Origin: a virus
IMG/VR virus record: IMGVR_UViG_3300008216_000009
Location: 1 to 64,000 of that record
Direction: 5' to 3' (one strand)
DNA: 64,000 nt
Of this stretch, positions 436 to 17,840 are shown piece by piece; position 1 is the first letter of the stretch, and each line of letters opens with the position of its first letter. The notes under the pieces are model-generated. The model was given only the letters and a program-made list of their open reading frames with translations. It did no database searches and had not been told where the DNA came from. A program made the position numbers and the translations under genes.

Positions 436-438
436 GGA

Positions 439-6913: not shown

Positions 6914-7321
6914 TTAGCTTATAGTCACCTTCACGTTGTTTTCCTTTACTGCCATCAGCTTGACGTACTCGGCAATGGACTTGTCCGCAAGAATGAGGCG
7001 GTGGTAGCGTTTCGGTACTGCCACCAGTACCTCTTTGAGTGTGACCAGCTTGCCGTTCGGGATGAAGTTCTCGGCCATGACTTTTGCCTTCATGCCGTTT
7101 CGTATGTATTCGCCACCGAGGTCTTTGACTTCGTCCAGCAGTGCCTCTTTAAGTACCTTCAAATCGGCATCTAGAGCCTTCTTAGCCTCTTGCATTGCGA
7201 CTACCTTGTCGAACACTTCATCGATGCTCTGAGGCTCTCTGGAGCGTACTGTAGTGGAATCCAGAGTTCCCGTGGTCACCTTGATTTGGGTCTTGCCGTT
7301 CTTGTTAGCCATTTCTGTCAT
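6914..7321 (-). CDS. Uncharacterised phage protein with coiled-coil segment
   Basis: 135 aa. A charged helical segment (about 35-70, VFDKVVAMQEAKKALDADLK) suggests a coiled coil, followed by a beta-rich C-terminus. AAAAGGAG lies close to ATG 7321; the in-frame ATG at 7312 (MANKNG) is an alternative start. The ribosome-binding region shares 13 nt of complementarity with the candidate small RNA near 20025. Function unknown. Confidence 0.75.
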   Translation of the reverse strand: MTEMANKNGKTQIKVTTGTLDSTTVRSREPQSIDEVFDKVVAMQEAKKALDADLKVLKEALLDEVKDLGGEYIRNGMKAKVMAENFIPNGKLVTLKEVLVAVPKRYHRLILADKSIAEYVKLMAVKENNVKVTIS

Positions 7322-7353
7322 TTCTCCTTTTCTTGTTTTTACCTTCTAGAGAT

Positions 7354-7382
7354 AGTATATCAGGTTACTGAACACCTGTCAA
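7354..7382 (-). promoter_or_regulatory. Sigma70-type promoter
   Basis: -35 TTGACA (7377-7382), 17-bp spacer, -10 TATACT (7354-7359); internal to the two-gene cassette 6914-7607. Confidence 0.87.
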
Positions 7383-7391
7383 GCACATCCT

Positions 7392-7607
7392 TTATCCTAC
7401 TGGAACTGCCCCAGAGGCGTTCGGAGCGGCCTCTTTGAGTGCCTTCACTGATAGGACGAATTTTGCCAGGGTGTCCAGTTCCTCGGAGGATGCGTTCAGA
7501 ATCTTGTTGTAGCCTACTTTGCCGACTACGTCCCCAGCACGGACTCCCGTTACGAACGCCATCAGGTCTGGTTTCTCTATCCTCAGTTCAATCGCTTGTA
7601 GGGTCAT
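7392..7607 (-). CDS. Small phage protein, function unknown
   Basis: 71 aa from ATG 7607 (MTLQAIELR), behind AAGGAGG; the longer frame crosses the promoter at 7637-7665. Mixed alpha/beta with an Ala-rich tail. No family recognised. Confidence 0.72.
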   Translation of the reverse strand: MTLQAIELRIEKPDLMAFVTGVRAGDVVGKVGYNKILNASSEELDTLAKFVLSVKALKEAAPNASGAVPVG

Positions 7608-7636
7608 GTCGTCCTCCTTCTTTGGTTTACTCTCTA

Positions 7637-7665
7637 AGTATACTCCTATTCTTAACACCTGTCAA
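7637..7665 (-). promoter_or_regulatory. Sigma70-type promoter
   Basis: -35 TTGACA (7660-7665), 17-bp spacer, -10 TATACT (7637-7642). Confidence 0.88.
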
Positions 7666-7717
7666 GCACATTCTGAGATGAATATCCTGGGTCTTGGACC
7701 CCGGTATTGCCCGGGAG

Positions 7718-7732
7718 GTAAGGAAAAGATGT
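7718..7732 (+). repeat. Intercassette motif, copy f
   Basis: GTAAGGAAAAGATGT in the loop of a perfect 7-bp stem, CCCGGGA (7710-7716) / TCCCGGG (7732-7738). First copy with A at position 7. Confidence 0.88.
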
Positions 7733-7767
7733 CCCGGGTAAGAGATCCGGCTCCTGGGAACTGGGAA

Positions 7768-7795
7768 TAAAAAAAGGGATGGGAAATCCCATCCC
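7768..7795 (-). terminator. Intrinsic terminator
   Basis: GGGATGGG/CCCATCCC hairpin with a minus-strand T-run of seven. Confidence 0.9.
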
Positions 7796-7830
7796 CCGTT
7801 CGGGGCACTTAAATTAAAATGGAGAGCGAG

Positions 7831-8271
7831 CTACTTCGTGTGTAGCAGAGAGAGGTAAATACGTGGAATATTCTCAATCAATAGATGTTCTACATCTGCC
7901 CGGAAATTCTCTAGGTTCTCTTTTTCTTCCTCATAATGTTCCAGGTTGTTCTTTTTCTTGATTTGTAGGGGTTTGCCATCCCTCATAGGGGTAATAAAAG
8001 TTTTATCAAACTGTTCATCCCATCTGTAAGAGGTGTAGCCATAGCGAGGAAGCTCTTCCGTTATCAGTTCTTGTACCAGGCTAATAGTGCTTTTCCACGC
8101 TTTCTCGTCTCTCCTGGTTTCGTAATGGAACTGACTAGGAACTAACTGCCAAAGTCTAGTTCCTAGAGATACTAATGTATTGTGGAATTCAATGATTACG
8201 GGTTTCAATATTGTCCTCCTGAACATATCGGTCAGTAATGCAGTAGGAGGGTACAGGGCTAGGTTGGTCAT
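7831..8271 (-). CDS. Uncharacterised phage protein
   Basis: 146 aa from ATG 8271 (MTNLALYPP), preceded by GGAG and overlapping the stop of 8268-8756 as ATGA. Helical and charged, with a Lys/Glu-rich segment near 110-125. No domain recognised. Second gene of a two-gene cassette. Confidence 0.75.
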   Translation of the reverse strand: MTNLALYPPTALLTDMFRRTILKPVIIEFHNTLVSLGTRLWQLVPSQFHYETRRDEKAWKSTISLVQELITEELPRYGYTSYRWDEQFDKTFITPMRDGKPLQIKKKNNLEHYEEEKENLENFRADVEHLLIENIPRIYLSLLHTK

Positions 8272-8756
8272 GCTGCTACTCCATTTAGGGGGCACGTTTC
8301 CATAATCGCTGACATAGCTTCTGAGATGTTAGTCAAATCTATAGTCCTCATTAGGTTCCATGATTGGCCTTCATGTTTATAAACTATGAGGGTATCATCG
8401 GATTCATTAAAGACATAGGCCCATTCAATAAAGACATTGTCTTTGTCCTCTACTGAGTCTACGGTCCATTCCTCCTCGTTCCTGTCGCCGTGGCAGTAGC
8501 ACTGTGGTTTGTCCTTGTTAGGGGAGTTAAAGTCTTCTACGAATCCAATTTCCTGCGTCCAATCACAGGACGCTATGTTAGACCAGCCCGCAGTATGGTC
8601 GTCCAATAATACTTTTTTACCCTCAGTTAGTCCGAAGTGATTCAAAGCTCTTAGAATACCTATACCGACCCCGGACGGGTATCCGTCCCAGTGACTGTAC
8701 CTTCCTACAAACGCATCGCCTTCAGTCTGTCTTGCAATCGTAGCCCTGGTGCTCAT
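8268..8756 (-). CDS. Conserved phage protein with YSHWDGYPSGVG motif
   Basis: 162 aa. The N-terminus (MSTRATIARQ, then GRYSHWDGYPSGVG at 18-31) matches a hypothetical family common in phages of Actinobacteria and other bacteria, known to me without an assigned function. GAGGAGGAG precedes the ATG. First gene of its cassette. Confidence 0.82.
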   Translation of the reverse strand: MSTRATIARQTEGDAFVGRYSHWDGYPSGVGIGILRALNHFGLTEGKKVLLDDHTAGWSNIASCDWTQEIGFVEDFNSPNKDKPQCYCHGDRNEEEWTVDSVEDKDNVFIEWAYVFNESDDTLIVYKHEGQSWNLMRTIDLTNISEAMSAIMETCPLNGVAA

Positions 8757-8783
8757 GTCTCCTCCTCTTATCAGTATACTAGT

Positions 8784-8812
8784 AGTATACCGTTAAGATA
8801 GGGGTATGTCAA
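8784..8812 (-). promoter_or_regulatory. Sigma70-type promoter
   Basis: -35 TTGACA (8807-8812), 17-bp spacer, -10 TATACT (8784-8789), followed by ACTAGTATACTG. Confidence 0.88.
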
Positions 8813-8872
8813 GCACATATAGGGCCGTAAATGCTGGAACTGGTCCAGCGGGTGTGTAGTTTACGGGGATTG

Positions 8873-8887
8873 GTAAGGAAAAGATAT
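8873..8887 (+). repeat. Intercassette motif, copy g
   Basis: GTAAGGAAAAGATAT. Only a weak GCGG/CCGC pairing flanks it. Confidence 0.75.
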
Positions 8888-8915
8888 AGCCGCCGGGGTC
8901 CTTTTCCGGGCAAAG

Positions 8916-8953
8916 AAAAACCCCGGAATCTTGATTTACCAGGATTCCGGGGC
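8916..8953 (-). terminator. Intrinsic terminator
   Basis: CCCCGGAATC/GATTCCGGGG hairpin followed by TTTTT on the minus strand. Confidence 0.9.
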
Positions 8954-8976
8954 TTTATTTGTACCTAAGTTGCTCT

Positions 8977-9630
8977 TTATGCTATGAGCCACTCCCTTCT
9001 GTCAGTTGCTATGGGTCTGACTGAGCGAACAAAGCTGTAAGCGGTGTCCAAACCCATACTCTTGTTCCTGACCAAGTACCATACGGTAGCCAAGACTGAG
9101 CGTTCCATGCCCATCGAGCAGTTGACCACTACCTTTTTCTCAGTAGCCATCGCCATCTCCATCGTATTCACAATGGACTCCAAGGTCTGCAAGACCTTGC
9201 TGGACTTCTTGATGCCCCATGTAGCATTGCTAGGTTCGATAGGCATCTTGACCGTAGTCTCGATGTCCAACTCACCTGCTACATTGATGGTGAAGTGCCC
9301 TTGCTTGATAGCCTCTTCGGCTCCCTCGGCTCCAGTAACGCCCAAGTTGGGCAGTACCCACGAAATCTCATGTGGGTCGAAATTGTCTGGAACTTCGTGC
9401 CCGACCATACTCTTCAGAACCTTGATTCTATCTCTGGAATCGTTGGAGTAGTCGTGCCGGGTTGGAGTTACGTACTTCTCATCCTTCCACCATTGGGTGG
9501 TAGATGCAGTAGCTGAGTTATCTATCACGTTGACATCAATCTCTTCCCACTCGCCATCTACGGCTTCATCTGCATAGATTAAGCCATTCTCAGTCAGAAC
9601 TTCGTTCGCATCCCATTTTCCGTTTTCCAC
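8977..9630 (-). CDS. Dual-specificity-phosphatase-like protein
   Basis: 217 aa. The C-terminal half contains the cysteine-phosphatase signature CSMGMERS (Cys171, Arg177; CX5R), which in this fold removes phosphate from proteins or small molecules through a phospho-cysteine. The usual His before the Cys is Asn170 here, so activity may be altered. About 100 residues of mixed N-terminal sequence precede it. GTG start at 9630 behind AAGGAGAAGG. A paralogue lies at 26731-27267 and shares the GHEVP..FDPHEISWV-type region before the catalytic domain. Substrate unknown. Confidence 0.8.
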   Translation of the reverse strand: MENGKWDANEVLTENGLIYADEAVDGEWEEIDVNVIDNSATASTTQWWKDEKYVTPTRHDYSNDSRDRIKVLKSMVGHEVPDNFDPHEISWVLPNLGVTGAEGAEEAIKQGHFTINVAGELDIETTVKMPIEPSNATWGIKKSSKVLQTLESIVNTMEMAMATEKKVVVNCSMGMERSVLATVWYLVRNKSMGLDTAYSFVRSVRPIATDRREWLIA

Positions 9631-9658
9631 AGTCCTTCTCCTTTTCAGTTATACTATA

Positions 9659-9687
9659 ATTATAGCATACAATCATACACTTGTCAA
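9659..9687 (-). promoter_or_regulatory. Sigma70-type promoter
   Basis: -35 TTGACA (9682-9687), 17-bp spacer, -10 TATAAT (9659-9664). Confidence 0.88.
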
Positions 9688-9701
9688 GCACCATCATAAC
9701 A

Positions 9702-10064
9702 TCAATTCAAGACATACAGGTTTTCCTGTAGCCACTTGGAGTGACCGAATTTTTCGCATTGCACTTCTCTGGTTTTGTGCGTCCAATCCTGGAATTCTTC
9801 CAGGGTCTTCATTGCACCATTCCGTACTTGCACACGAATACACACGCCACAAAATGCTGAGTGATTGAGGAACTCTACAGGGTTCTGAGCCTTCTTCATC
9901 TCGGTGGCGAAGTGGTCGCCTTCGTCAAATATGATGTTAACCTCGGCAAGTTGCTTTTTCAGACTTGGAGTCATATCCATATCCATCCCCTTTACCTCTT
10001 TAACTTTATTTAGTGTATCTATCAGATGCTGGTAGTCGGTCTTCGATGCTTTCAGTTGACGCAT
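9702..10064 (-). CDS. Uncharacterised phage protein
   Basis: 120 aa, helical, with CGVC at about 72-75 and further Cys/His downstream that could bind metal. TAGGAG precedes the ATG. First gene of the transcript that continues into the phosphatase-like gene; no terminator lies between them. Confidence 0.75.
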   Translation of the reverse strand: MRQLKASKTDYQHLIDTLNKVKEVKGMDMDMTPSLKKQLAEVNIIFDEGDHFATEMKKAQNPVEFLNHSAFCGVCIRVQVRNGAMKTLEEFQDWTHKTREVQCEKFGHSKWLQENLYVLN

Positions 10065-10094
10065 GACAGTCTCCTATCCAAATCCTTTACAGAT

Positions 10095-10123
10095 AGTATA
10101 CAGGAAAAACAGTATCGTGTCAA
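10095..10123 (-). promoter_or_regulatory. Sigma70-type promoter
   Basis: -35 TTGACA (10118-10123), 17-bp spacer, -10 TATACT (10095-10100). Confidence 0.88.
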
Positions 10124-10165
10124 GCACATATTCCCGGTAAAGGACCCCCTGGGGACCCGGGAGGG

Positions 10166-10180
10166 GTAAGGAAAAGATGT
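10166..10180 (+). repeat. Intercassette motif, copy h
   Basis: GTAAGGAAAAGATGT between CCCGG (10156-10160) and CCGGG (10182-10186), with GGG/CCC continuing beyond one mismatch. Confidence 0.83.
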
Positions 10181-10206
10181 GCCGGGACCCTGGAGGATCC
10201 CAGGCA

Positions 10207-10232
10207 AAGAAAAAGCCCGGTATTAACCGGGC
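10207..10232 (-). terminator. Intrinsic terminator
   Basis: GCCCGGTT/AACCGGGC hairpin followed by TTTTT on the minus strand; lies just past the tRNA. Confidence 0.9.
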
Positions 10233-10242
10233 CAGGTGTGTG

Positions 10243-10330
10243 TGGTGGGGAGTGCAGGATTCGCACCTGCGTATCTCAAACGAGAGCCAGTTTTACAGAC
10301 TGGTGCTTTTGTCTACTCAGCCAACTCCCC
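10243..10330 (-). tRNA. trnY: tRNA-Tyr (anticodon GUA)
   Basis: Full type II tRNA of 88 nt. Acceptor GGGGAGT pairs with ACTCCCC; the anticodon arm CCAGT-CTGTAAA-ACTGG places GTA at 10294-10296; there is a long variable arm (as in bacterial tRNA-Tyr), a GCAGG/CCTGC T-arm, and an encoded CCA end (10243-10245). It sits in the slot between the last gene and terminator, so it must be cut from a mRNA. It would supply host-independent decoding of UAC/UAU. Confidence 0.95.
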
Positions 10331-10341
10331 GTAAGTGGAAT

Positions 10342-10548
10342 TCATCTGGCCTGATAGCCATAGATGTATGCCCATACCCAATCGTACATCGCTCGTTTGG
10401 ATAACCGAGGGCTAACCTCCACTGAGCCGTTTTCCTTAACTAGCCTATAGCCACCGTAAGCCTTGTCATAGCTGTAGTCACGAGTGTTGTTAGTCGCTCG
10501 ATTTAGAGCCGACAGTGCATCGTCTAGGTTTGATTTAAGTATTCTCAT
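10342..10548 (-). CDS. Small phage protein, function unknown
   Basis: 68 aa, basic, predicted helix-strand mix ending in WVWAYIYGYQAR. Start overlaps the stop of 10548-10895 (TGATG) behind GGGAG. It lies 12 nt upstream of the tRNA in the same transcript. Confidence 0.75.
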   Translation of the reverse strand: MRILKSNLDDALSALNRATNNTRDYSYDKAYGGYRLVKENGSVEVSPRLSKRAMYDWVWAYIYGYQAR

Positions 10549-10895
10549 CAGTACGCTCCCTGTTCGGATTGTGCATACGCTTCAGCGTGACCATTAGCAT
10601 CCCAATCACCGTGACCGATGCCATCATAACCATAAGCGTGTGGATTTTCAGCTATCTGGCGAATGACCGCCGTATTTATTCCAACTTGGTCAGCCAGATT
10701 CAACCAGAATTCTCCATCTTTGGAGTTCAGCCACTCTATGTCCTCGCCCCCACGTAGTTCTGGGCGATTCATTCTGCCGTTAGCCAGCCTATAAGTGTTC
10801 TCAGGTTCAATGGCAGTGCCAATGACGGCTCCGATTAGCTGGGCCATTCCATCGTGTATCCCTTTTGCGTCTATGTCCGAGTTAGCCTGATTCAT
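10548..10895 (-). CDS. Uncharacterised phage protein
   Basis: 115 aa, acidic, with a Gly/His-rich C-terminal segment (YGYDGIGHGDWDANGHAEA). No domain recognised. First gene of the cassette that carries the tRNA. Confidence 0.75.
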   Translation of the reverse strand: MNQANSDIDAKGIHDGMAQLIGAVIGTAIEPENTYRLANGRMNRPELRGGEDIEWLNSKDGEFWLNLADQVGINTAVIRQIAENPHAYGYDGIGHGDWDANGHAEAYAQSEQGAY

Positions 10896-10928
10896 CTAGT
10901 CCCCTCTCTTAGTTAGTCTACACCTCTA

Positions 10929-10957
10929 AGTATAAAGCATTAGCCTACATCTGTCAA
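10929..10957 (-). promoter_or_regulatory. Sigma70-type promoter
   Basis: -35 TTGACA (10952-10957), 17-bp spacer, -10 TATACT (10929-10934). Confidence 0.88.
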
Positions 10958-10966
10958 GTAAATTCC

Positions 10967-10998
10967 GTAGCTAACGAAACCAATCTGAAAGCAATTTT
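10967..10998 (-). promoter_or_regulatory. Repeated upstream promoter element, copy 1
   Basis: Plus-strand TAGCTAACGAAACCAATCTG-AAAGCAATTTT directly upstream of the -35 box. Related copies occur at 12411-12441 and 16557-16588 in the same place relative to the promoter. Activator site or UP-like element is a guess. Confidence 0.5.
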
Positions 10999-11091
10999 AC
11001 GTCTATCTGGAATATAGTTACTGGGAATTGCGGAGGCTGTGGCAATATGCCTTCGAGGTGCTCTTGGTCTGCGAGCTAAGGACCCGGAGGG

Positions 11092-11106
11092 GTAAGGAAA
11101 AGATGT
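11092..11106 (+). repeat. Intercassette motif, copy i
   Basis: GTAAGGAAAAGATGT inside a composite stem: GGACC (11080-11084) with GGTCC (11113-11117), and GGGG with CCCC (11108-11111). Confidence 0.84.
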
Positions 11107-11132
11107 TCCCCAGGTCCAGAAGTCCCAGACAC

Positions 11133-11160
11133 AAAAAAAGCCCCAGCTTTTGCCGGGACT
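11133..11160 (-). terminator. Intrinsic terminator
   Basis: AGTCCCGGC/GCTGGGGCT (9 bp with wobbles) and a T-run of seven on the minus strand. Confidence 0.87.
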
Positions 11161-11167
11161 TGGGTTT

Positions 11168-11247
11168 AGAAGTAGAAGTCTGTGGTTTCTGTGGGCCACT
11201 CCCCTAGGTCATGCTAGGTAGGGGTCATTCCCCCGACTTTTACTTCT
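11168..11247 (-). ncRNA. Four-helix RNA element A, copy 1
   Basis: P1 AGAAGTAAAAGTC/GACTTCTACTTCT, P2 GGGG/CCCC, P3 CCTAG-CATGAC-CTAGG, P4 GTGG/CCAC. Shares the fold and core CCCCTACCT-CATGAC-AGGGGA with copies at 12298-12367 and 15262-15325, with compensatory changes in P3 and P4. This copy lies after 11265-11507 and before its terminator. Confidence 0.65.
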
Positions 11248-11264
11248 GTGGGGCTATCTGGGGC

Positions 11265-11507
11265 TTACATGGCCCCCAGCCCTTCGGGGCCGCAGCAGCC
11301 ACAGGCGGGAGCATCTTCGCACATCCCGTTGCCTTGGATGGCCCTGCCGTTGGCCCAACGGACTCCCCCGTCGAACTTGTCGTGGCAGTCCATCCCGTAG
11401 ACCCGCCCCCGTCCGTACCAGCGACCCTTAGAGCCGACAGGGAGCGATGCTCCACATTGGGTGTCGGCGCACTTGCCAGCGAACTTGAGAGTGATAGTTT
11501 TTGCCAT
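11265..11507 (-). CDS. Cys-rich zinc-ribbon phage protein
   Basis: 80 aa from ATG 11507 (MAKTITLKFAGKC) behind AGGGGA. Cys at 12 and 17, CH near 41, then a CGCC cluster near the C-terminus suggest one or two metal sites; KGRWYGRGRVYG at 26-37 resembles small ribbon proteins of other phages. The frame extends upstream only through the promoter. Confidence 0.78.
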   Translation of the reverse strand: MAKTITLKFAGKCADTQCGASLPVGSKGRWYGRGRVYGMDCHDKFDGGVRWANGRAIQGNGMCEDAPACGCCGPEGLGAM

Positions 11508-11540
11508 GAGGTGTCCCCTTTTCAATTTTGGTATACTCAC

Positions 11541-11569
11541 AGTATACACTATTATCAGACATCTGTCAA
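11541..11569 (-). promoter_or_regulatory. Sigma70-type promoter
   Basis: -35 TTGACA (11564-11569), 17-bp spacer, -10 TATACT (11541-11546). Confidence 0.88.
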
Positions 11570-11626
11570 GTGCCTATTTGAAACGAAGGACCAGTCCGAG
11601 GCGGAGGACCTGGTACCCCGGGAGAG

Positions 11627-11641
11627 GTAAGGAAAAGATGT
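11627..11641 (+). repeat. Intercassette motif, copy j
   Basis: GTAAGGAAAAGATGT looped out by GGAGAG (11621-11626) / CTCTCC (11647-11652), with outer CTGGT/ACCAG pairing. Confidence 0.87.
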
Positions 11642-11667
11642 GGGATCTCTCCAGGACCAGCGGGCAC

Positions 11668-11692
11668 AAAAAAAGCCCGGGATTTCCCGGGC
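11668..11692 (-). terminator. Intrinsic terminator
   Basis: GCCCGGGA/TCCCGGGC hairpin with a T-run of seven on the minus strand. Confidence 0.92.
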
Positions 11693-11718
11693 ATAAGTTT
11701 CTGACGGACCGGTCCAGA

Positions 11719-12063
11719 TCAGAATGGTTTAGGTGATACGTCTATCCTTCGATATGAATCTATTAGCTTCTGGACTTGTGTGATATCGGCTTCAGTCCAC
11801 TCACTTTCAGTCTCCATAAACTCTCGGAATTTAGGAGCATCTGGAAACTTCTGATCAACATATTGGATTCTATCTGCCAGATAGGCATCCCACTTGTCAT
11901 CGTCAAAGTCCTCGGCACTACGTTCTGTCATGGCTTCTATTGTATCGTTGCATGGCCCACACATATAACAGTCCATGTAGTCACGACCACACGGAATTCG
12001 ATTCACCCATCCATCGTATTGGGTATCGGCTCCGCATTCAAAACAAAGTGTTGTGTCAATCAT
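11719..12063 (-). CDS. Zinc-binding phage protein
   Basis: 114 aa from ATG 12063 (MIDTTLCFEC). CFEC at 7-10 and CYMCGPC near 31-37 form a zinc site; the rest is acidic and helical. AAAGGA precedes the start, which follows the stop of 12065-12259 by one base. Confidence 0.78.
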   Translation of the reverse strand: MIDTTLCFECGADTQYDGWVNRIPCGRDYMDCYMCGPCNDTIEAMTERSAEDFDDDKWDAYLADRIQYVDQKFPDAPKFREFMETESEWTEADITQVQKLIDSYRRIDVSPKPF

Positions 12064-12064
12064 T

Positions 12065-12259
12065 TTAGTTAGTCCTTTCAGTTCTGATCTGATCCAGCCG
12101 TTCAGCCATATCCCGAACCAGTTTCCGACCCTCCTCCTTGCCTTGTTCGCCCTCACCGTTCTCGATGAGCATGATGGCGACCTTTGCCTGAAATGCCCAG
12201 TCTGGGGCGATATTGACGGTGGTGACTATGTTGCCACTCCCAGTGTAGATGTCGGTCAT
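12065..12259 (-). CDS. Small phage protein, function unknown
   Basis: 64 aa; AAAAGGAG precedes the ATG. The C-terminal half is a charged helix (GEGEQGKEEGRKLVRDMAER). Its mRNA has a long leader holding RNA element A copy 2, so expression may be controlled there. Confidence 0.75.
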   Translation of the reverse strand: MTDIYTGSGNIVTTVNIAPDWAFQAKVAIMLIENGEGEQGKEEGRKLVRDMAERLDQIRTERTN

Positions 12260-12297
12260 CTTGTCTCCTTTTGCTTATGGGTTGATGGTTGATTTGC

Positions 12298-12367
12298 GTG
12301 GAGTCCGTGGTGTCCGTTTGTCCACTCCCCTCGGTCATGCGAGGTAGGGGTTCTTCCCTAACTCCAC
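12298..12367 (-). ncRNA. Four-helix RNA element A, copy 2 (5' leader)
   Basis: P1 GTGGAGT/ACTCCAC, P2 TAGGG-AAGAA-CCCCTA, P3 CCTCG-CATGAC-CGAGG, P4 GTGG/CCAC. It begins right after the transcription start and lies in the leader of 12065-12259, a riboswitch-like position. Confidence 0.68.
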
Positions 12368-12373
12368 CTTCTA

Positions 12374-12402
12374 AGGATACACTAAAACGTAACATCTGTC
12401 AA
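12374..12402 (-). promoter_or_regulatory. Sigma70-type promoter
   Basis: -35 TTGACA (12397-12402), 17-bp spacer, -10 TATCCT (12374-12379). Confidence 0.83.
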
Positions 12403-12410
12403 GTATTTCT

Positions 12411-12441
12411 ATAGCTGAGAAAAGCAATATCAAAGCAATTT
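12411..12441 (-). promoter_or_regulatory. Repeated upstream promoter element, copy 2
   Basis: Plus-strand ATAGCTGAGAAAAGCAATAT-CAAAGCAATTT just upstream of the -35 box; see 10967-10998. Confidence 0.5.
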
Positions 12442-12494
12442 GGACGGTCCGGTCCAGGACCCCGTTCCCTGGACCCCCACGGCAGGAGGTATAG

Positions 12495-12509
12495 GTAAGG
12501 AAAAGATGT
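12495..12509 (+). repeat. Intercassette motif, copy k
   Basis: GTAAGGAAAAGATGT inside a perfect 8-bp stem, GGACCCCC (12471-12478) / GGGGGTCC (12513-12520). Confidence 0.87.
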
Positions 12510-12535
12510 ACCGGGGGTCCCGGCTTCGCCAGGGC

Positions 12536-12562
12536 AAAAAAATTCCCCTCTTAAAAGAGGGG
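12536..12562 (-). terminator. Intrinsic terminator
   Basis: CCCCTCTT/AAGAGGGG hairpin followed by a short minus-strand T-run. Confidence 0.87.
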
Positions 12563-12573
12563 ATGTATTCTAC

Positions 12574-12622
12574 ATGCCTCATATGTTTTTTAGGCTCCCA
12601 GAGGCATTCTGGGGCGGTCATG
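12574..12622 (-). ncRNA. 3' RNA element B, copy 1 (pseudoknot-like)
   Basis: Minus strand: stem CCCAGA-ATGCC-TCTGGG, then AGCCTAAAAAACATAT, then GAGGCAT, which can pair with the loop ATGCC. About 90% identical to 13210-13258. Lies between the stop of 12633-12962 and its terminator. Confidence 0.6.
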
Positions 12623-12632
12623 GCGATGGGTA

Positions 12633-12962
12633 TCAGCCGTGCTGCTCTGCGAGGCGACCCCAGAGTTTGTCAGCCCGCCGAACAGATTTCTCAGCTTCGC
12701 TAACTAGCTCACGGTACTTACCTAGCTCTGCCTGCCACCGCCGTAGCTGCTGCTTCTCGAATCGGTACACATCGTAAGCAGCATCGACGACTGCGTCGGC
12801 GTGAGGGAAGTTCGCAGCGCAACCTTCGCACTCGTCCCCGTACCAACCGCCGTCAGTTGGGCAATTAGCCTCGCCGTATTCGTTGACAACGAGCTTCTCA
12901 CCGCAGCCGTAGGGGCAATCGAGAGTAGCTATGTTTACTTTCTCGTTAGTAGTTGTGACCAT
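12633..12962 (-). CDS. Zinc-binding phage protein with helical tail
   Basis: 109 aa. CPYGC (16-20), Cys34 and CEGC (45-48) form an N-terminal zinc region; residues 55-109 are a long charged helix. AAGGA lies 11 bases before the ATG. Leader and 3' element are nearly the same as those of the unrelated gene 13274-13495. Confidence 0.78.
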   Translation of the reverse strand: MVTTTNEKVNIATLDCPYGCGEKLVVNEYGEANCPTDGGWYGDECEGCAANFPHADAVVDAAYDVYRFEKQQLRRWQAELGKYRELVSEAEKSVRRADKLWGRLAEQHG

Positions 12963-13022
12963 TTGGTTTTTTTCCTTCCCCAGAAGCCCGACGACTGAGT
13001 GACCCCTGTAAATTACGACTAC
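12963..13022 (-). promoter_or_regulatory. Shared leader C, copy 1
   Basis: Leader begins ATAGGTAGTCG and ends TCTGGGGAAGGAAAAAAACC before the ATG. It can form CAGGGG/CTTCTG. The leader at 13496-13553 shares both ends and the pairing (CAGAGG/CCTCTG). Confidence 0.6.
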
Positions 13023-13026
13023 CTAT

Positions 13027-13055
13027 AGGATACACTAAAATAGGTGCTATGTCAA
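13027..13055 (-). promoter_or_regulatory. Sigma70-type promoter
   Basis: -35 TTGACA (13050-13055), 17-bp spacer, -10 TATCCT (13027-13032). Confidence 0.83.
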
Positions 13056-13127
13056 GTAGGTCGGAAAACTGAGACTCCAGATATTCCTGGCTTTGTATAG
13101 CCTGGGTAGTTCCCGGTGAGCCAGGTC

Positions 13128-13142
13128 GTAAGGAAAAGATGT
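13128..13142 (+). repeat. Intercassette motif, copy l
   Basis: GTAAGGAAAAGATGT with inner CCAG (13121-13124) / CTGG (13144-13147) and outer CCCGG/CCGGG pairing. Confidence 0.82.
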
Positions 13143-13169
13143 ACTGGGGTCCGGCTCCGCCGGGGCAAA

Positions 13170-13192
13170 GAAAAACCCCTCTTTTGAGGGGT
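13170..13192 (-). terminator. Intrinsic terminator
   Basis: ACCCCTC/GAGGGGT hairpin followed by TTTT on the minus strand. Confidence 0.87.
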
Positions 13193-13209
13193 AGTGGTAG
13201 TTTTATAGT

Positions 13210-13258
13210 ATGCCTCATATGTTTTTTAGGCTCTCAGAGGCGTTCTGAGGCGGTTATG
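13210..13258 (-). ncRNA. 3' RNA element B, copy 2 (pseudoknot-like)
   Basis: Stem CTCAGA-ACGCC-TCTGAG (compensatory change against copy 1), the same A-rich linker and GAGGCAT. Lies after 13274-13495. Confidence 0.6.
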
Positions 13259-13273
13259 CCACCCTACCCTACC

Positions 13274-13495
13274 TTAGGCTGGAGTGACGACGTGCCACAC
13301 CTTACCAGCGTAGGGACCGACATCCGCAACCTCTAATCCAGCGGCTGACCCGTCGGCTACTCCCATGGTGGACTCGCAAGCTGTGCAGATAGTCCATGAC
13401 GGGCTAACTACGATGGTTGCAGGGTTCTTGCACCCTTGTGCAGTCCACGCTTTGGAGTCATCTATGTGACTCATGTGCTCGCATTGGCAGTTCAT
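13274..13495 (-). CDS. Cys-rich phage protein
   Basis: 73 aa. CQCEH near the N-terminus, Cys22, and CTAC (37-40) suggest a zinc site. AAAGGA precedes the ATG. The protein is unrelated to that of 12633-12962 although promoter, leader C and 3' element B are shared. Confidence 0.75.
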   Translation of the reverse strand: MNCQCEHMSHIDDSKAWTAQGCKNPATIVVSPSWTICTACESTMGVADGSAAGLEVADVGPYAGKVWHVVTPA

Positions 13496-13553
13496 TTGGT
13501 TTTTGTCCTTTCCCAGAGGGCGAGAGAGTGCCTCTGTAATATCCGACTACCTA
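13496..13553 (-). promoter_or_regulatory. Shared leader C, copy 2
   Basis: ATAGGTAGTCG start, CAGAGG/CCTCTG hairpin and CTGGGAAAGGACAAAAACC end; close relative of 12963-13022. Confidence 0.6.
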
Positions 13554-13554
13554 T

Positions 13555-13583
13555 AGTATAAAGGAAAACACGCAATATGTCAA
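13555..13583 (-). promoter_or_regulatory. Sigma70-type promoter
   Basis: -35 TTGACA (13578-13583), 17-bp spacer, -10 TATACT (13555-13560). Confidence 0.88.
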
Positions 13584-13631
13584 GTGTCTGCCTCGAATAC
13601 TCCTGGGAGGATCCTAGTCCTCCCGGGAAGG

Positions 13632-13646
13632 GTAAGGAAAAGATAT
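13632..13646 (+). repeat. Intercassette motif, copy m
   Basis: GTAAGGAAAAGATAT; CTCC (13620-13623) and GGAG (13660-13663) can pair around it. Confidence 0.78.
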
Positions 13647-13679
13647 GCCAGGTCCCCCAGGAGCCTCGAAGCTCCCAGC

Positions 13680-13709
13680 AAAAAAAATCCCGGTAAAATA
13701 CCGGGATTT
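13680..13709 (-). terminator. Intrinsic terminator
   Basis: ATCCCGGTA/TACCGGGAT hairpin with a T-run of seven on the minus strand. Confidence 0.92.
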
Positions 13710-13732
13710 CTTCAACAGTTAGGGCTGTCTAT

Positions 13733-13819
13733 TTATTTAATTGTTTTGTTCCATGCCTTAGTTAGCTCACGTTTCAGTTCAGATACCTTGCATTTAATTA
13801 CGAATTGTCGCTTATGCAT
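13733..13819 (-). CDS. 28-aa basic microprotein
   Basis: MHKRQFVIKC then KVSELKRELTKAWNKTIK: a basic amphipathic helix. Its ATG overlaps the end of 13812-14072 by 8 nt and AGAGG lies about 7 nt before it. Small size leaves doubt. Confidence 0.5.
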   Translation of the reverse strand: MHKRQFVIKCKVSELKRELTKAWNKTIK

Positions 13820-14072
13820 ATGCTGCCTCTGGATTGAATATACTTTCCCATTTACCCATCATGTCACTCCAACGCCCTCGGACTGCATTCTCAGTGTCAT
13901 GGACTTCGTAGTCTACGAACCCTTGGTCATCCTCTAGGATGATGCCATAGAGGCCGTCAGTGATGATTAGGGCTGACCAGAATCCCTCTACCTGACAGGA
14001 GCCATACTCTTCCTCTGCAAAGCCGTTCATTGCTACGTCGTTTAGCTTTTCCGAAATTGCGTCGTACTTCAT
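13812..14072 (-). CDS. Small acidic phage protein
   Basis: 86 aa from ATG 14072 (MKYDAISEKL), AAAGGG before it, ATGA overlap with 14069-14287. Acidic, with a GIILEDDQGFVDYEVHDTENA stretch compatible with a small beta sheet. Function unknown. Confidence 0.75.
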   Translation of the reverse strand: MKYDAISEKLNDVAMNGFAEEEYGSCQVEGFWSALIITDGLYGIILEDDQGFVDYEVHDTENAVRGRWSDMMGKWESIFNPEAAYA

Positions 14073-14287
14073 TCTAGTTCCCTTTCGTTGCTGAGTTCTC
14101 CACACACACATTCTGTGATTCTAGGGATGAATTTCAAGCTACATTCGCATATGTTCAACTTGGTGTCTTCTACGAAAGACTTACACTCAGGACACTGGAA
14201 TAGCCTACGGTCTTCGCATTCCGTGTAGTGCTTCTCGTCCACCCAAGGTGGGTCTACTGGTAGGTCAACTACGATGTCTTGGTTCAT
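14069..14287 (-). CDS. Zinc-ribbon phage protein
   Basis: 72 aa from ATG 14287 (MNQDIVVDLP). CPEC at about 32-35 with paired CEC and CVC further on suggest one or two zinc sites. AGGAG precedes the ATG; the frame extends to 14374 only inside the upstream gene. Confidence 0.75.
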   Translation of the reverse strand: MNQDIVVDLPVDPPWVDEKHYTECEDRRLFQCPECKSFVEDTKLNICECSLKFIPRITECVCGELSNERELE

Positions 14288-14289
14288 TT

Positions 14290-14463
14290 TTATGCTCCTA
14301 TGTAATCGCTGGCTGAGCAATCCCAGCATATGGTCAGAGTCTCGTCTAGGTTCGTCCCCGTACATTCTGGGCATTCTCGATTGGCCCGCATTAGTTGTTT
14401 CTTGAGTTTAGCTACTAACTTCATTGTGTCGTTTACTAGGCTATTTCTTTGTATGTTATTCAT
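14290..14463 (-). CDS. 57-aa zinc-ribbon microprotein
   Basis: N-terminal basic helix (MNNIQRNS...KLVAKLKKQL) followed by CPEC and CWDC knuckles about 12 residues apart. AAGG precedes the ATG, which overlaps the upstream stop (TGATG). Below usual ORF cut-offs but well supported by packing and the zinc motif. Confidence 0.78.
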   Translation of the reverse strand: MNNIQRNSLVNDTMKLVAKLKKQLMRANRECPECTGTNLDETLTICWDCSASDYIGA

Positions 14464-14612
14464 CAGTTTCTCACCTTACTTGTTTTGATCTTGATGTCCT
14501 TGATAGCATCTTGATCACGGATGACATCGTTGATGTCGATGTCGCTCTCACTGACCTTGCCATCGTACTCCATCTCGTAGATTACCGTGACCTTGACCTT
14601 TGTGTTTTCCAT
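14463..14612 (-). CDS. 49-aa phage protein, paralogue of 16302-16487
   Basis: TKVKVTVIYEMEYDGKV near the N-terminus and NDVIRDQ in the middle align with TKVKVVVEYELVYDEKI and NDIVRDP of 16302-16487. GGGAGGG precedes the ATG. First gene of a five-gene cassette. Role unknown. Confidence 0.78.
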   Translation of the reverse strand: MENTKVKVTVIYEMEYDGKVSESDIDINDVIRDQDAIKDIKIKTSKVRN

Positions 14613-14647
14613 GGATTCGCCCTCCCTTGTGTTTGGTCTACCCTCTG

Positions 14648-14676
14648 ATTATACTCTCATTCTTTACATGTGTCAA
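14648..14676 (-). promoter_or_regulatory. Sigma70-type promoter
   Basis: -35 TTGACA (14671-14676), 17-bp spacer, -10 TATAAT (14648-14653). Confidence 0.88.
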
Positions 14677-14740
14677 GTGTTTATTTGACCAATTTTACTT
14701 GGATTTGGACCCCGTCCCGGTTCCTGGTAGAGCTTAGAGG

Positions 14741-14755
14741 GTAAGGAAAAGATAT
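14741..14755 (+). repeat. Intercassette motif, copy n
   Basis: GTAAGGAAAAGATAT between TCCTG (14722-14726) and CAGGA (14764-14768). Last copy of the A7 class. Confidence 0.8.
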
Positions 14756-14780
14756 GTCCCGGGCAGGAGGATTCCAGGGC

Positions 14781-14808
14781 AAAAAAAATCCCGGCTCGAA
14801 GCCGGGAT
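14781..14808 (-). terminator. Intrinsic terminator
   Basis: ATCCCGGC/GCCGGGAT hairpin with a T-run of eight on the minus strand. Confidence 0.92.
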
Positions 14809-14826
14809 AGGGGGGGATTACGAGGA

Positions 14827-15201
14827 TTACTCGTAGTGGGGCCGATAGGCGGGGTATTCTTCGCCAGGATGGTCTTCTACCCTGATTTCATAGCTACCAG
14901 ATGTTACCAACTCGCCTGGGAATTCTGTTGGGACATCCATCGTATCCAGATAGTTTACGCCGTTAGCGTCGTGTGTGTAGCTGTAGGCATATTCTGATTT
15001 GTTGGAATATTTGGCACTCAGAATAGATTCCCAGTGTCCCGCAGGACATAGGTCGCCGTGGACATACTCGGACTCAGACTCGACACAGGTGGTCGCCTTG
15101 CTCACAACTGGAGTACCACATGTGTAGTACCAGCCACCCTCCTCTGCACCGCCGTAGCGACGTTCGGTAGAATATACATTTACGAAAACTGTGTTGCTCA
15201 T
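14827..15201 (-). CDS. Uncharacterised phage protein with RRYGGAEEGGWYY motif
   Basis: 124 aa, Tyr-rich. ERRYGGAEEGGWYYTCGTPV at 13-32 resembles a hypothetical phage family. Two or three Cys may bind metal. It has a 140-nt leader holding RNA element A copy 3, and its own promoter and terminator. Confidence 0.78.
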   Translation of the reverse strand: MSNTVFVNVYSTERRYGGAEEGGWYYTCGTPVVSKATTCVESESEYVHGDLCPAGHWESILSAKYSNKSEYAYSYTHDANGVNYLDTMDVPTEFPGELVTSGSYEIRVEDHPGEEYPAYRPHYE

Positions 15202-15261
15202 TTTATCTCCCTGTGTTTTGGTTCTGGGCAGTAGCTCGGATGTGACATTGGACTGGGTTGA

Positions 15262-15325
15262 GAGCCTCTAGGGTCTGATGGCTAGTCCCCTGAGTTATGT
15301 CAGGTAGGGGGCACTCCCCCGACTC
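15262..15325 (-). ncRNA. Four-helix RNA element A, copy 3 (5' leader)
   Basis: P1 GAGTC/GGCTC (plus CTGGG/CCCAG outside), P2 GGGGG-AGTG-CCCCC, P3 CCTGA-CATAAC-TCAGG, P4 CTAG/CTAG. Helices differ from the other copies by paired changes while the loop and the CCCCTACC / AGGGGA core persist. Confidence 0.68.
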
Positions 15326-15351
15326 CCCAGCCCCATCCTCACTACATTAGT

Positions 15352-15380
15352 AGTATACCACGATTCCTTACATGTGTCAA
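15352..15380 (-). promoter_or_regulatory. Sigma70-type promoter
   Basis: -35 TTGACA (15375-15380), 17-bp spacer, -10 TATACT (15352-15357). Confidence 0.88.
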
Positions 15381-15449
15381 GTCTTTTGGTCCCGGGTTTT
15401 TAACTTGAGTCCTGGGCCAGGAGGAACTTGCAGTAAATGCAATATGGGT

Positions 15450-15464
15450 GTAAGGGAAAGCTGT
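15450..15464 (+). repeat. Intercassette motif, copy o
   Basis: GTAAGGGAAAGCTGT between CAGTA (15431-15435) and TACTG (15464-15468). First copy of the C12 class. Confidence 0.8.
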
Positions 15465-15472
15465 ACTGGATC

Positions 15473-15512
15473 CTTTGAGTTTTTACCCGGGTAAAAAGCC
15501 TTACCAGGGTTC
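15473..15512 (-). terminator. Weak terminator-like hairpin
   Basis: CCCTGGTAA/TTACCCGGG (one mismatch) just past the stop of 15517-15783; no proper T-run follows on the minus strand. Confidence 0.5.
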
Positions 15513-15516
15513 CTCT

Positions 15517-15783
15517 CTATTTTAGATACTCCCTCACAATGGCTTTTAGGTCTACCATTCCTCGCTTTGGCTCCCCTAAGATGAAGTCTAGGCACTTTTG
15601 GATATTCTGGAGGGACATGCTGCCGTGAGTGCAGAAACGCTTTATTCGTTCAATTCCTTCGACTACTGTTACGAATTGACCGATTGCCACGATTTCGTAA
15701 TTCCCTACTTGTAGACTATGATTCCAGTCTCCATCTCGGATTTCGTTCAGGCTTAGAGGATTTCCGTTCTTTGTGATTGCCAT
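15517..15783 (-). CDS. Small phage protein, function unknown
   Basis: 88 aa; GAGGAG precedes the ATG. Beta-rich N-terminus (WNHSLQVGNYEIVAIGQFVTVV) and helical C-terminus. Unlike its neighbours it has no TTGACA box upstream; only a weak GATAAT is seen, so its expression may differ. Confidence 0.72.
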   Translation of the reverse strand: MAITKNGNPLSLNEIRDGDWNHSLQVGNYEIVAIGQFVTVVEGIERIKRFCTHGSMSLQNIQKCLDFILGEPKRGMVDLKAIVREYLK

Positions 15784-15934
15784 AGTTTTTCTCCTCTTAG
15801 TTACTTTTCTTATCTACTCTCATTATCTATGACGACGCCCAGAAGTCGGCCAGTACCTACCCAGTATCCATCCAGATGTGAGGCAGGTTTGGCCCAGAGA
15901 TGGCCCAGTTCCTGGAGGTATAGTGCACGATGGG

Positions 15935-15949
15935 GTAAGGGAAAGCTGT
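15935..15949 (+). repeat. Intercassette motif, copy p
   Basis: GTAAGGGAAAGCTGT inside CCTGGAGG (15911-15918) / CCTCCCAGG (15954-15962), 8 bp with one bulge. Confidence 0.84.
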
Positions 15950-15979
15950 GTTCCCTCCCAGGGACCGAAATCCGGGCAC

Positions 15980-16036
15980 AAAAAAGCCCTGACCTCATAG
16001 CTTCGCCTTTTGTAGGCTCCACGGTTCGTCAGGGCT
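15980..16036 (-). terminator. Intrinsic terminator with long apical loop
   Basis: AGCCCTGAC/GTCAGGGCT with about 34 nt in the loop and TTTTTT on the minus strand. A separate ACTCCGT/ACGGAGT hairpin follows at 16038-16055. Confidence 0.82.
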
Positions 16037-16055
16037 GACTCCGTTAGTACGGAGT

Positions 16056-16141
16056 TTCGGTAACTGCCCCTGCAGTGTATGTATATTTAATGGTAGTCAG
16101 ACTTTAACTTCGCATTTCAATACTCCTCAGTGCTGCTGTCG
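16056..16141 (-). other. Possible broken small gene
   Basis: A frame overlapping the stop of 16142-16300 as ATGA reads MTTAALRSIEMRS, TAA, then SLTTIKYTYTAGAVTETPY and a stop at about 16046. It may be a remnant interrupted by one stop codon, or noise. Confidence 0.25.
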
Positions 16142-16300
16142 TCATTCTGATTTGTCCTTCCGTTTTCCCCATCCTGCCAGTTCCCGTTGTTTAGCTACTT
16201 CGGGATCTGAGGTAGCAAACCTGCGTATTCGTTCTGTTACTTCACGCTGCCTGATTTCCTCTTTGGCCTGTTCGATGGACATGTATGTAATTGTTGGCAC
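16142..16300 (-). CDS. 52-aa basic helical phage protein
   Basis: Starts at GTG 16300, five bases after AAGGAG and one base after the stop of 16302-16487. Highly charged helix (EQAKEEIRQREVTERIRRF). An internal ATG (MSIEQ) six codons in is less well placed. Function unknown. Confidence 0.72.
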   Translation of the reverse strand: MPTITYMSIEQAKEEIRQREVTERIRRFATSDPEVAKQRELAGWGKRKDKSE

Positions 16301-16301
16301 A

Positions 16302-16487
16302 TTAGCTCCTTACAGTCTTAAATTCTACGTCATGTATAGAGACGATATTGCGGGGGTCTCGAACAATATCATTGAAGTCCACGATGTCGCTGACGTTGTC
16401 CTTATCTATTTTCTCATCATAGACCAATTCGTACTCCACGACCACTTTGACTTTGGTTCCTGTCTGCTTCTTGAGTAGCCCTAGCAT
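16302..16487 (-). CDS. Small phage protein, paralogue of 14463-14612
   Basis: 61 aa. TKVKVVVEYELVYDEKI and NDIVRDP align with the 49-aa product of 14463-14612. AAGGAG precedes the ATG. First gene of its cassette. Function unknown. Confidence 0.78.
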   Translation of the reverse strand: MLGLLKKQTGTKVKVVVEYELVYDEKIDKDNVSDIVDFNDIVRDPRNIVSIHDVEFKTVRS

Positions 16488-16519
16488 TGCGTCACTCCTT
16501 CTTAATTGGTTCTACAGTC

Positions 16520-16548
16520 ATTGTACACCTATTTCCTACATGTGTCAA
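16520..16548 (-). promoter_or_regulatory. Sigma70-type promoter
   Basis: -35 TTGACA (16543-16548), 17-bp spacer, -10 TACAAT (16520-16525). Confidence 0.85.
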
Positions 16549-16556
16549 GCATTGCC

Positions 16557-16588
16557 TATAGCTAAGAAAACCAATCTCAAAGCAATTT
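16557..16588 (-). promoter_or_regulatory. Repeated upstream promoter element, copy 3
   Basis: Plus-strand TATAGCTAAGAAAACCAATC-TCAAAGCAATTT upstream of the -35 box; see 10967-10998. Confidence 0.5.
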
Positions 16589-16646
16589 CCTACTCCCCCT
16601 ACCCGACCTGGGAGAACCCGTGAATCGGTCCCTCCGCCCGGGAGGG

Positions 16647-16661
16647 GTAAGGGAAAGCTGT
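16647..16661 (+). repeat. Intercassette motif, copy q
   Basis: GTAAGGGAAAGCTGT; CCTGGG (16607-16612) and CCCAGG (16667-16672) can enclose it. Confidence 0.8.
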
Positions 16662-16713
16662 GGTGGCCCAGGTGTTCGTGCCAGGGGCTGTTTTGGGGTT
16701 TGTCCGGGGCTAT

Positions 16714-16760
16714 GCCACAAAAGTGGCACAAAAAAACCCCAGGCAGAAATGCCTGGGGCT
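16714..16760 (-). terminator. Intrinsic terminator with a second hairpin
   Basis: CCCCAGGC/GCCTGGGG (16737-16758) followed by a T-run of seven on the minus strand, then a GCCAC/GTGGC hairpin (16714-16727). Confidence 0.92.
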
Positions 16761-16790
16761 TGTGCGGTGTTTGCTGTATTTTAAGTGTAC

Positions 16791-16967
16791 TTAGGCACTC
16801 CGTTTCCTCTTGTACTCTCGATACTCTGAATTGCTGAGTCCGTTGATGTACTCTCGATGTACCTTGAGTAGCAACTTAAAGTCGTGGAGTAGTTCCTCTC
16901 TTGGGTTCAATTCTCCATCGTTGAAATATCCCATTGCGTCGCCTAGTGTTAGTTCGTCTTCACGCAT
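16791..16967 (-). CDS. Small phage protein, function unknown
   Basis: 58 aa from ATG 16967 (MREDELTLGD), overlapping the end of 16960-17193 by 8 nt, with GGAG eight bases upstream. Acidic N-terminus, basic C-terminus (YREYKRKRSA). Last gene of a four-gene cassette. Confidence 0.74.
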   Translation of the reverse strand: MREDELTLGDAMGYFNDGELNPREELLHDFKLLLKVHREYINGLSNSEYREYKRKRSA

Positions 16968-17193
16968 TTCCGTTTCTCCGTTTCTGCCAGTAGGTGTCAA
17001 AGATTTCTCCCTGCTCTACCCGTCTGCCCAATGTTGTCTCAAGTTTAATCCATTCCCTGAGAATCTCATTCTCCCGCTTACGGGATTCTGATGGAGATGC
17101 TTCGCCGTCCATGTGTAGATTCTCTGGCTCCAATCGGATTACCAGATTGAAAAACTTACTGAATAGCTCGTTAGGTATGGTCGTCTTTATCAT
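16960..17193 (-). CDS. Small phage protein, function unknown
   Basis: 77 aa, helical and charged, with no motif recognised. GGTGAG precedes the ATG; it ends inside the next gene's start. Confidence 0.74.
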   Translation of the reverse strand: MIKTTIPNELFSKFFNLVIRLEPENLHMDGEASPSESRKRENEILREWIKLETTLGRRVEQGEIFDTYWQKRRNGNA

Positions 17194-17194
17194 T

Positions 17195-17380
17195 TTAGTT
17201 TCTCACCATCCGTTCAATTCCTTTAATCATCCGACTATGTTTTCTCATCCTAGCCGGAGAAACATGGTTCCAGTTGCAATCCCCACAGCATAATCCTTCT
17301 GCAACTGGAGATGCATCGTAGCCCCATGAACCCTTAACTGAGTGATTTGCTATGGGATTCTTGCAGATAACGCATTGCAT
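17195..17380 (-). CDS. Zinc-binding phage protein
   Basis: 61 aa. CVIC (3-6) and CCGDC (31-35) plus His39 form a treble-clef-like zinc site reminiscent of HNH-type folds, but too short for a nuclease. GGGTGAG precedes the ATG. Confidence 0.76.
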   Translation of the reverse strand: MQCVICKNPIANHSVKGSWGYDASPVAEGLCCGDCNWNHVSPARMRKHSRMIKGIERMVRN

Positions 17381-17381
17381 G

Positions 17382-17666
17382 TCAGTCTCTCACCCTTCTC
17401 TCCCGCTGGCTCCACAGGCCCGTGTATACCTCTTTAATCATCTTTGCAGCCTCGTCCTGATTCGACCCGTAGACCACTACTCGCCCCAACTCATCGACAC
17501 TGAGCCTCTCAACGCCGTCTGCGGGGCATTCTAGGATGGTTACCCACTTGCCAGAGAGTGTGGCGGGATAGTTGTCGGCAGCGTCCAGTTCCGACTCTCC
17601 CATTGACCAGTAGCCCTCGTCAGACCTTATCACGAACAATTTCTCCGCTGTAGCCGATGTCTTCAA
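17382..17666 (-). CDS. Small phage protein, function unknown
   Basis: 94 aa starting at TTG 17666 behind AAGGAG. Mixed alpha/beta; contains GYWSMGESELDAADNYPATL. No family recognised. First gene of the cassette. Confidence 0.74.
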   Translation of the reverse strand: MKTSATAEKLFVIRSDEGYWSMGESELDAADNYPATLSGKWVTILECPADGVERLSVDELGRVVVYGSNQDEAAKMIKEVYTGLWSQRERRVRD

Positions 17667-17705
17667 AGCAGTCTCCTTCGCCGTCAGGGTTGTGTTACAT
17701 CTCTA

Positions 17706-17734
17706 ATTGTACACTATAACAAGACACGTGTCAA
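17706..17734 (-). promoter_or_regulatory. Sigma70-type promoter
   Basis: -35 TTGACA (17729-17734), 17-bp spacer, -10 TACAAT (17706-17711). Confidence 0.85.
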
Positions 17735-17825
17735 GCACAATTCAAGGGCAATTTTACCTGTATTTGGAAATTGGTCAGTCTCCCCTGCCCGGATACCCCC
17801 GTGGACCCTGGGTGGCCCGGGGGCG

Positions 17826-17840
17826 GTAAGGGAAAGCTGT
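17826..17840 (+). repeat. Intercassette motif, copy r
   Basis: GTAAGGGAAAGCTGT in the loop of an 11-bp stem, GGCCCGGGGGC (17814-17824) / GCCCCTGGGCC (17845-17855). Strongest hairpin and last copy of the array. Confidence 0.9.

Follow-up and report, generated by a model that had tools for sequence, protein, structure and literature searches.

How do two neighboring genes with nothing recognizable in common come to stand within nearly the same control sequences? The question is raised by two adjacent cassettes, A and B, which share a promoter, a leader and a 3' element and encode proteins of 109 and 73 aa, respectively. The initial annotation took the pair as direct evidence that genes are swapped within conserved flanks, or that one cassette was duplicated and its gene replaced. 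We find it probable that A and B are a tandem duplicate of a whole cassette, one ORF of which was later swapped for an unrelated one.

Records and Relatives

The window, i.e., the whole stretch of DNA that was analyzed (64,000 nucleotides), comprises positions 1-64000 of a 95,606-base IMG/VR phage record (G000). The phage carrying the two cassettes is an unclassified bacterial virus from an uncultured lineage. A second record, G001 (IMGVR_UViG_3300025267_000006; 105,383 bases), is 99.9-100% identical to G000 wherever the two were compared, in the left arm; it is thus the same phage again and does not count as independent evidence. The sister phage, G002 (IMGVR_UViG_3300009108_000002), was reached via the major head protein, which is 83% identical over 434 residues. 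The DNA of 11500-14800 has no match among the phage records of the isolate collection. With regard to a relationship to T4, the structural proteins match few or no PHROGs, none of which marks a T4 relative, and there is no DNA match among the phage records. A block of four genes that includes an AAA ATPase (29732-32875 in the window) is found in the opposite orientation and at another place in G002 (47,430-50,544).

Matching Flanks, Different Genes

A and B are both minus-strand cassettes, B being the upstream one along the direction of transcription. The coordinates initially assigned to them are correct, as is the shared promoter, whose first base is at 13055 in A and at 13583 in B (Table 1). 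The near-matching leaders were recovered as well, with the reported start and end motifs present at both sites. Exact copies of the leader motif CTATAGGTAGTCG are found only at 13016-13028 and 13544-13556, and the leader end TCTGGGRAAGGAMAAAAACCAAATG, with up to three mismatches allowed, occurs in the window only at the two A/B sites (0.00 expected). The 49-nt 3' elements, described before as about 90% identical, are 92% identical without gaps. Even with three mismatches the 20-nt core of this element has only two copies in the window (0.01 expected), and it is absent from the sister record G002. The initial annotation was right in that a 3' element is shared, yet the shared block is longer than the 49 nt proposed: the two sequences start to match 10 nt (A) or 15 nt (B) past the stop codon and stay alike over the 49-nt element, the terminator and, finally, a conserved 15-mer (BLAST: 79.7% over 133 nt, E 3e-27). 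On the 5' side the match starts at the -35 box and reaches the start codon (BLAST: 75% over 96 nt, E 5e-12).

Table 1. Features of the two cassettes and of the surrounding array in the window.
Feature	Position	Strand	Remarks
Array of small transcription units	250..17840	-	18 copies of the 15-mer in a single orientation
Cassette B, whole	13583 to 13128	-	promoter to 15-mer
Cassette B promoter	13555..13583	-	TTGACA-17-TATACT
Cassette B leader (ATAGGTAGTCG...CTCTGGGAAAGGACAAAAACCAA)	13496..13554	-	matches cassette A leader up to the start codon
Cassette B ORF	13274..13495	-	73 aa; five Cys; no family found
Cassette B 49-nt 3' element	13210..13258	-	possible hairpin CTCAGA/TCTGAG
Cassette B terminator	13167..13191	-	
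Conserved 15-mer past terminator B (ACATCTTTTCCTTAC on the minus strand)	13128..13142	-	closes the homologous block
Cassette A, whole	13055 to 12495	-	promoter to 15-mer
Cassette A promoter	13027..13055	-	TTGACA-17-TATCCT
Cassette A leader	12963..13026	-	matches cassette B leader
Cassette A ORF	12633..12962	-	109 aa; five Cys and a predicted long C-terminal helix; no family found
Cassette A 49-nt 3' element	12574..12622	-	possible hairpin CCCAGA/TCTGGG
Cassette A terminator	12536..12562	-	
Conserved 15-mer past terminator A	12495..12509	-	

Compared with 1000 dinucleotide shuffles, promoter plus leader score 73 and the 3' part 132, the largest shuffled score being 26 for each, whereas the ORF DNA scores 16, a value equaled or exceeded in 849 of the 1000 shuffles and thus at chance. 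With the promoter hexamers masked, the A/B leaders still score 60.0, the highest value among 231 window cassette pairs; the runner-up reaches 32.8, and the 693 shuffled scores peak at 25.0. The full pattern, in which both flanks are shared, is found in only one pair in the G000 phage. Because the leader end and the 3' core are private to A and B, both ends were probably copied together; a dispersed repeat that landed twice is unlikely, and the copying of a whole unit is simpler.

The codon usage of both ORFs fits that of six other array genes in frame, unlike that of the other five frames, and both are therefore probably real genes. The claim that the two proteins are unrelated holds at the sequence level, for DNA as well as for protein. 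Homology between them, which would turn the case into simple duplication and divergence, was sought by protein alignment and not found: the BLOSUM62 score of 22 is reached by 1619 of 2000 shuffles. Among 18 frame combinations a single one reached 3 of 300 shuffles, which we take as chance, and the identity of 0.82 in a global alignment of the ORFs is worthless, since lenient gaps give 0.81 for shuffled sequence. Nevertheless, both ORFs could descend from one small cysteine-rich (zinc-ribbon-like) gene, the flanks having been constrained by function. Five cysteines are present in either protein, with one CxxC each, around which the best local alignment falls, so that remote homology, with a distant common origin of the zinc-ribbon-like part, is possible, and the flanks carry functional parts (promoter, ribosome-binding site and hairpins) that selection could preserve. 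The chance-level scores for protein and DNA argue against such divergence, which we consider unlikely, as do ORF lengths that differ by a third and the predicted structure of the 109-aa protein. That model (mean pLDDT 74.6, moderate) has two strands followed by helices, the last of which, at 55-108, is 54 residues long, and a 73-aa protein would hardly have room for it; the model of the 73-aa protein itself (mean pLDDT 39.7) is unusable for fold comparison.

Neither protein has a relative in IMG/VR, in 50,697 phage records or in the genome collection at the sensitivity used, the viral and genome contig scans being based on six exact 8-residue patterns that reach close relatives only. The annotation had proposed looking in relatives for either gene in other flank contexts. 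No such case was found, both proteins being seen in the G000 phage alone, with none among 23 further records, and no relative was seen to have these flanks around another gene. The records searched also yielded no empty site, intermediate or donor.

Between A and B the possible hairpin in the 3' element differs by one compensatory pair, which is too little for proof. A candidate pseudoknot, read by eye, may form between the loop GCCTC and a downstream GAGGC, with one pair lost in B. The Rfam scan of 1-30000 returned nothing above threshold except a tRNA, and a 26.6-bit anti-hemB hit over the 3' element, against a threshold of 49.5, was taken as chance. Full-length folds had suggested base pairing between leader and 3' element, and shuffling the leader mononucleotides gave weakly supportive results (5 and 22 of 500). 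As the reason why both parts were kept, such pairing was rejected on the basis of dinucleotide shuffles (15 and 29 of 200), a test in which five G002 cassettes and two other window cassettes outscore A and B.

An Array of Small Transcription Units

The A/B pair belongs to an array of about 22 promoter-led units. The curated promoters, about 22 in 1-20.1 kb, almost all belong to the minus strand (which has 29 hits versus one on the plus strand, some promoters being hit twice), and many of them are preceded by sites with a hairpin and a T-run. The array genes are probably expressed early.

The 15-mer that follows the terminators of A and B (plus strand: GTAAGGRAAAGMTRT) occurs in the record only in the array, where no copies are expected by chance; its copies are mostly placed within about 45 nt beyond a terminator, i.e., between the terminator and the next promoter. 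One guess is that the 15-mer is a regulator site or an elongation-blocking site. It might also be a recombination site, as attC is in integrons, used in a dedicated site-specific exchange of cassettes; that all 18 copies point the same way, that none would be expected, and that the homologous block stops at the 15-mer would agree with this. However, the breakpoints between A and B lie at the start and stop codons, away from the 15-mers, and the three records, which may be fragments, contain neither a tyrosine recombinase (PF00589, detected in 14 of 14 control genomes) nor a serine recombinase (PF00239). The tyrosine-family integrase of an integron-like array was thus not found in these possibly fragmentary records, and in place of promoterless cassettes, A and B each have their own promoter-like sequence. 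We therefore regard site-specific exchange as highly improbable. Given that recombinases of both families are missing from three possibly incomplete records, we assume ordinary homologous or annealing recombination by default.

Along the array, like variants of the 15-mer stand next to each other (the 18 copies form 3 runs; 18 of 48,620 arrangements), a pattern expected from local conversion or local duplication, and some elements are common piecemeal to cassettes with different genes. Both observations would fit a history in which gene conversion gave two old, unrelated neighbors similar leaders and 3' blocks. This homogenization would require two separate conversions, one per side, each ending at the edge of the ORF, and the spacers between the 15-mer and the next promoter are outside the reported matches; we doubt that it explains the pair. 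The converse of the A/B pattern is also present in the array: the first ORFs of units W16548 and W14676 have 41.7% identity over 48 aa, and the leader of W14676 most closely resembles that of W7665, which has an unrelated ORF. Because upstream element, promoter with leader, ORF and 3' block are found in varying combinations, recombination between control repeats may keep swapping genes.

A search of further phages for the 15-mer before a terminator gave 31 stretches, and among these the only ones with more than one copy are from the G000 phage and the sister record. Four further relatives have no copies and few promoters, their contigs possibly not reaching that arm.

Several other features recur in this region. 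An element of about 40 nt lies directly upstream of three promoters with unlike leaders and genes (12404-12445, 10959-11000 and 16550-16591, minus strand). A small two-hairpin RNA element is found three times on the minus strand (12300-12362, 15264-15328 and 11183-11242), in two leaders and one 3' region; both sides of its stem CCTNN/NNAGG change among the three copies, the pairs having been read by eye. The sequence TTGACANNTGT, which could form one half of an operator dyad across the -35 box, is present at 14 of the 22 window promoters (1860-19659), and TTGAC[AT]NNTGT at just two of the 25 promoters in the sister phage; the distribution of TTGACANNTGT suggests a common regulator in the G000 phage. 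Among the few gene families common to both arrays are genes of the dual-specificity-phosphatase kind, with two related ones per phage (window 8977-9630 and 26731-27267; L106, 5177-5779; L107, 10203-10697). The small-gene arm also encodes HSP20-like and DnaJ-domain proteins (window 457-912 and 18433-18897).

Comparison with the Sister Phage

The array of G002, for which 25 promoters were used, is of the same kind. The 15-mer core GTAAGGAAAAGMT has nine copies in G002 (57,094-72,038), placed as in the window. With 70 of 141 kb compared, G002 has matches for five of the 52 array ORFs, a set that probably includes some non-genes, versus 19 of the 21 ORFs at 29.5-50.3 kb. As far as the sequences compared reveal, the frame persists between the two phages, while the array genes change.

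Two pairs of cassettes within G002 can be set beside A and B. In the pair G15197/G12249, a match over 213 nt at 71.8% identity spans leader and ORF, and the proteins are 52.9% identical over 51 aa; the flank identity is similar to that of A/B, although these flank values were obtained with lenient gaps and are good for side-by-side comparison only. That ORFs remain recognizable at such a flank identity makes divergence alone a poor explanation for A and B. In the pair G13408/G12775, the first 62 nt of the leaders match (55 of 62 identical), the match ending at the ATG; the ORFs have no match and the 3' sides differ, leaving the leader as the sole shared part. Between the phages, six orthologous gene pairs gave 12 flank comparisons, ten of them at chance. 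The two weak matches are both upstream (3 and 7 of 300 shuffles), and the stronger of the two includes a promoter present in both phages.

Discussion

That A and B share both flanks and differ in their genes is confirmed, and their origin by duplication and replacement is probably right in outline. In a first step, one complete cassette, with promoter, leader, gene, 3' element, terminator and 15-mer, would have been duplicated in tandem; in a second, one copy would have exchanged its coding sequence for an unrelated one, the joints falling at the start codon and shortly after the stop codon. Genes could be swapped in this way, each staying expressed, if the repeated control sequences, or near-homologous ends, recombine with one another. 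We infer that duplication came first and replacement second, that homologous or annealing-type recombination was the cause, and that expression is early. A stronger version would hold that the phage maintains standing expression frames, each made up of promoter, leader with ribosome-binding site, 3' RNA element, terminator and 15-mer, and that a frame-recognizing process inserts complete coding sequences into them, using the start codon and a point just beyond the stop codon as joints and the 15-mer or the 3' element as guide; we think this quite improbable. Duplication followed by replacement of one ORF, one of the two options in the initial annotation, is the best-supported reading of the pair. 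Its wording of direct evidence was too strong, however, because no relative was found in which either gene has other flanks or these flanks surround another gene, and because gene conversion of the flanks gives the same picture.

Promoter early stem-loops (PeSLs) of T4-type phages were reportedly described in Arbiol 2010 and Comeau 2014. In two papers (PMC4503421, PMC3950731), PeSLs are described as repeated units of a terminator and an early promoter between small genes in a high-turnover region, and gene shuffling between related phages is proposed. The window array resembles the PeSLs as they are described there: it too has small genes and high turnover, a terminator stem-loop is followed by an early-type promoter in its intergenic regions, and gene content around the conserved units differs between related phages. 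Among the records searched there is no pair of phages in which a copy is both shared and exchanged. In contrast to PeSLs, the parts common to A and B extend to the complete leader as far as the ATG, to a 3' element of their own and to the 15-mer, and no search marked the phage as T4-like. In the haloarchaeal virus HGTV-1, a conserved promoter-like motif and an inverted repeat precede most left-arm ORFs, and regulation and shuffling were suggested (PMC3950731); the promoter described there is archaeal and TATA-like, whereas the window has a sigma-70 type promoter and a terminator.

Other phages have short repeats of a comparable kind. The SAS/ESAS of Cluster K mycobacteriophages precede many small genes, often of different families (PMC3203893), and they sit at the translation start, whereas the 15-mer of the window lies between a terminator and the next promoter. 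The stoperators of Cluster A mycobacteriophages are short asymmetric intergenic sites with one orientation relative to transcription (PMC3029335). The 15-mer is likewise intergenic and points one way, but it has no assigned repressor, and its sequence differs and does not contain TGTCAAG. In the same paper, short conserved boundary sequences and the Island3/Brujita case are associated with exchange near gene boundaries that leaves genes functional, through short homology or illegitimate recombination (PMC3029335); the junction described there is at one gene, whereas A and B keep the complete control frame to either side of the gene.

By analogy with the T4-type PeSLs, the A/B pair fits a known general kind of modular shuffling and appears ordinary in kind, with unusual parts. 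What sets it apart is that the leader in its full length and a 3' element private to the pair belong to the kept frame, and that each unit is closed by a 15-mer. This 15-mer is conserved between two phages whose array genes mostly differ. Turnover in the small-gene regions of phages is very fast, and the arrival of a new gene already under working control is rarely visible. The A/B pair, found in a phage to which no isolated phage is closely related, offers a snapshot of two units whose control sequences are preserved at both ends and which differ in the coding part alone. If duplication and replacement is the true history of the pair, then the joints at the start codon and past the stop codon become testable.
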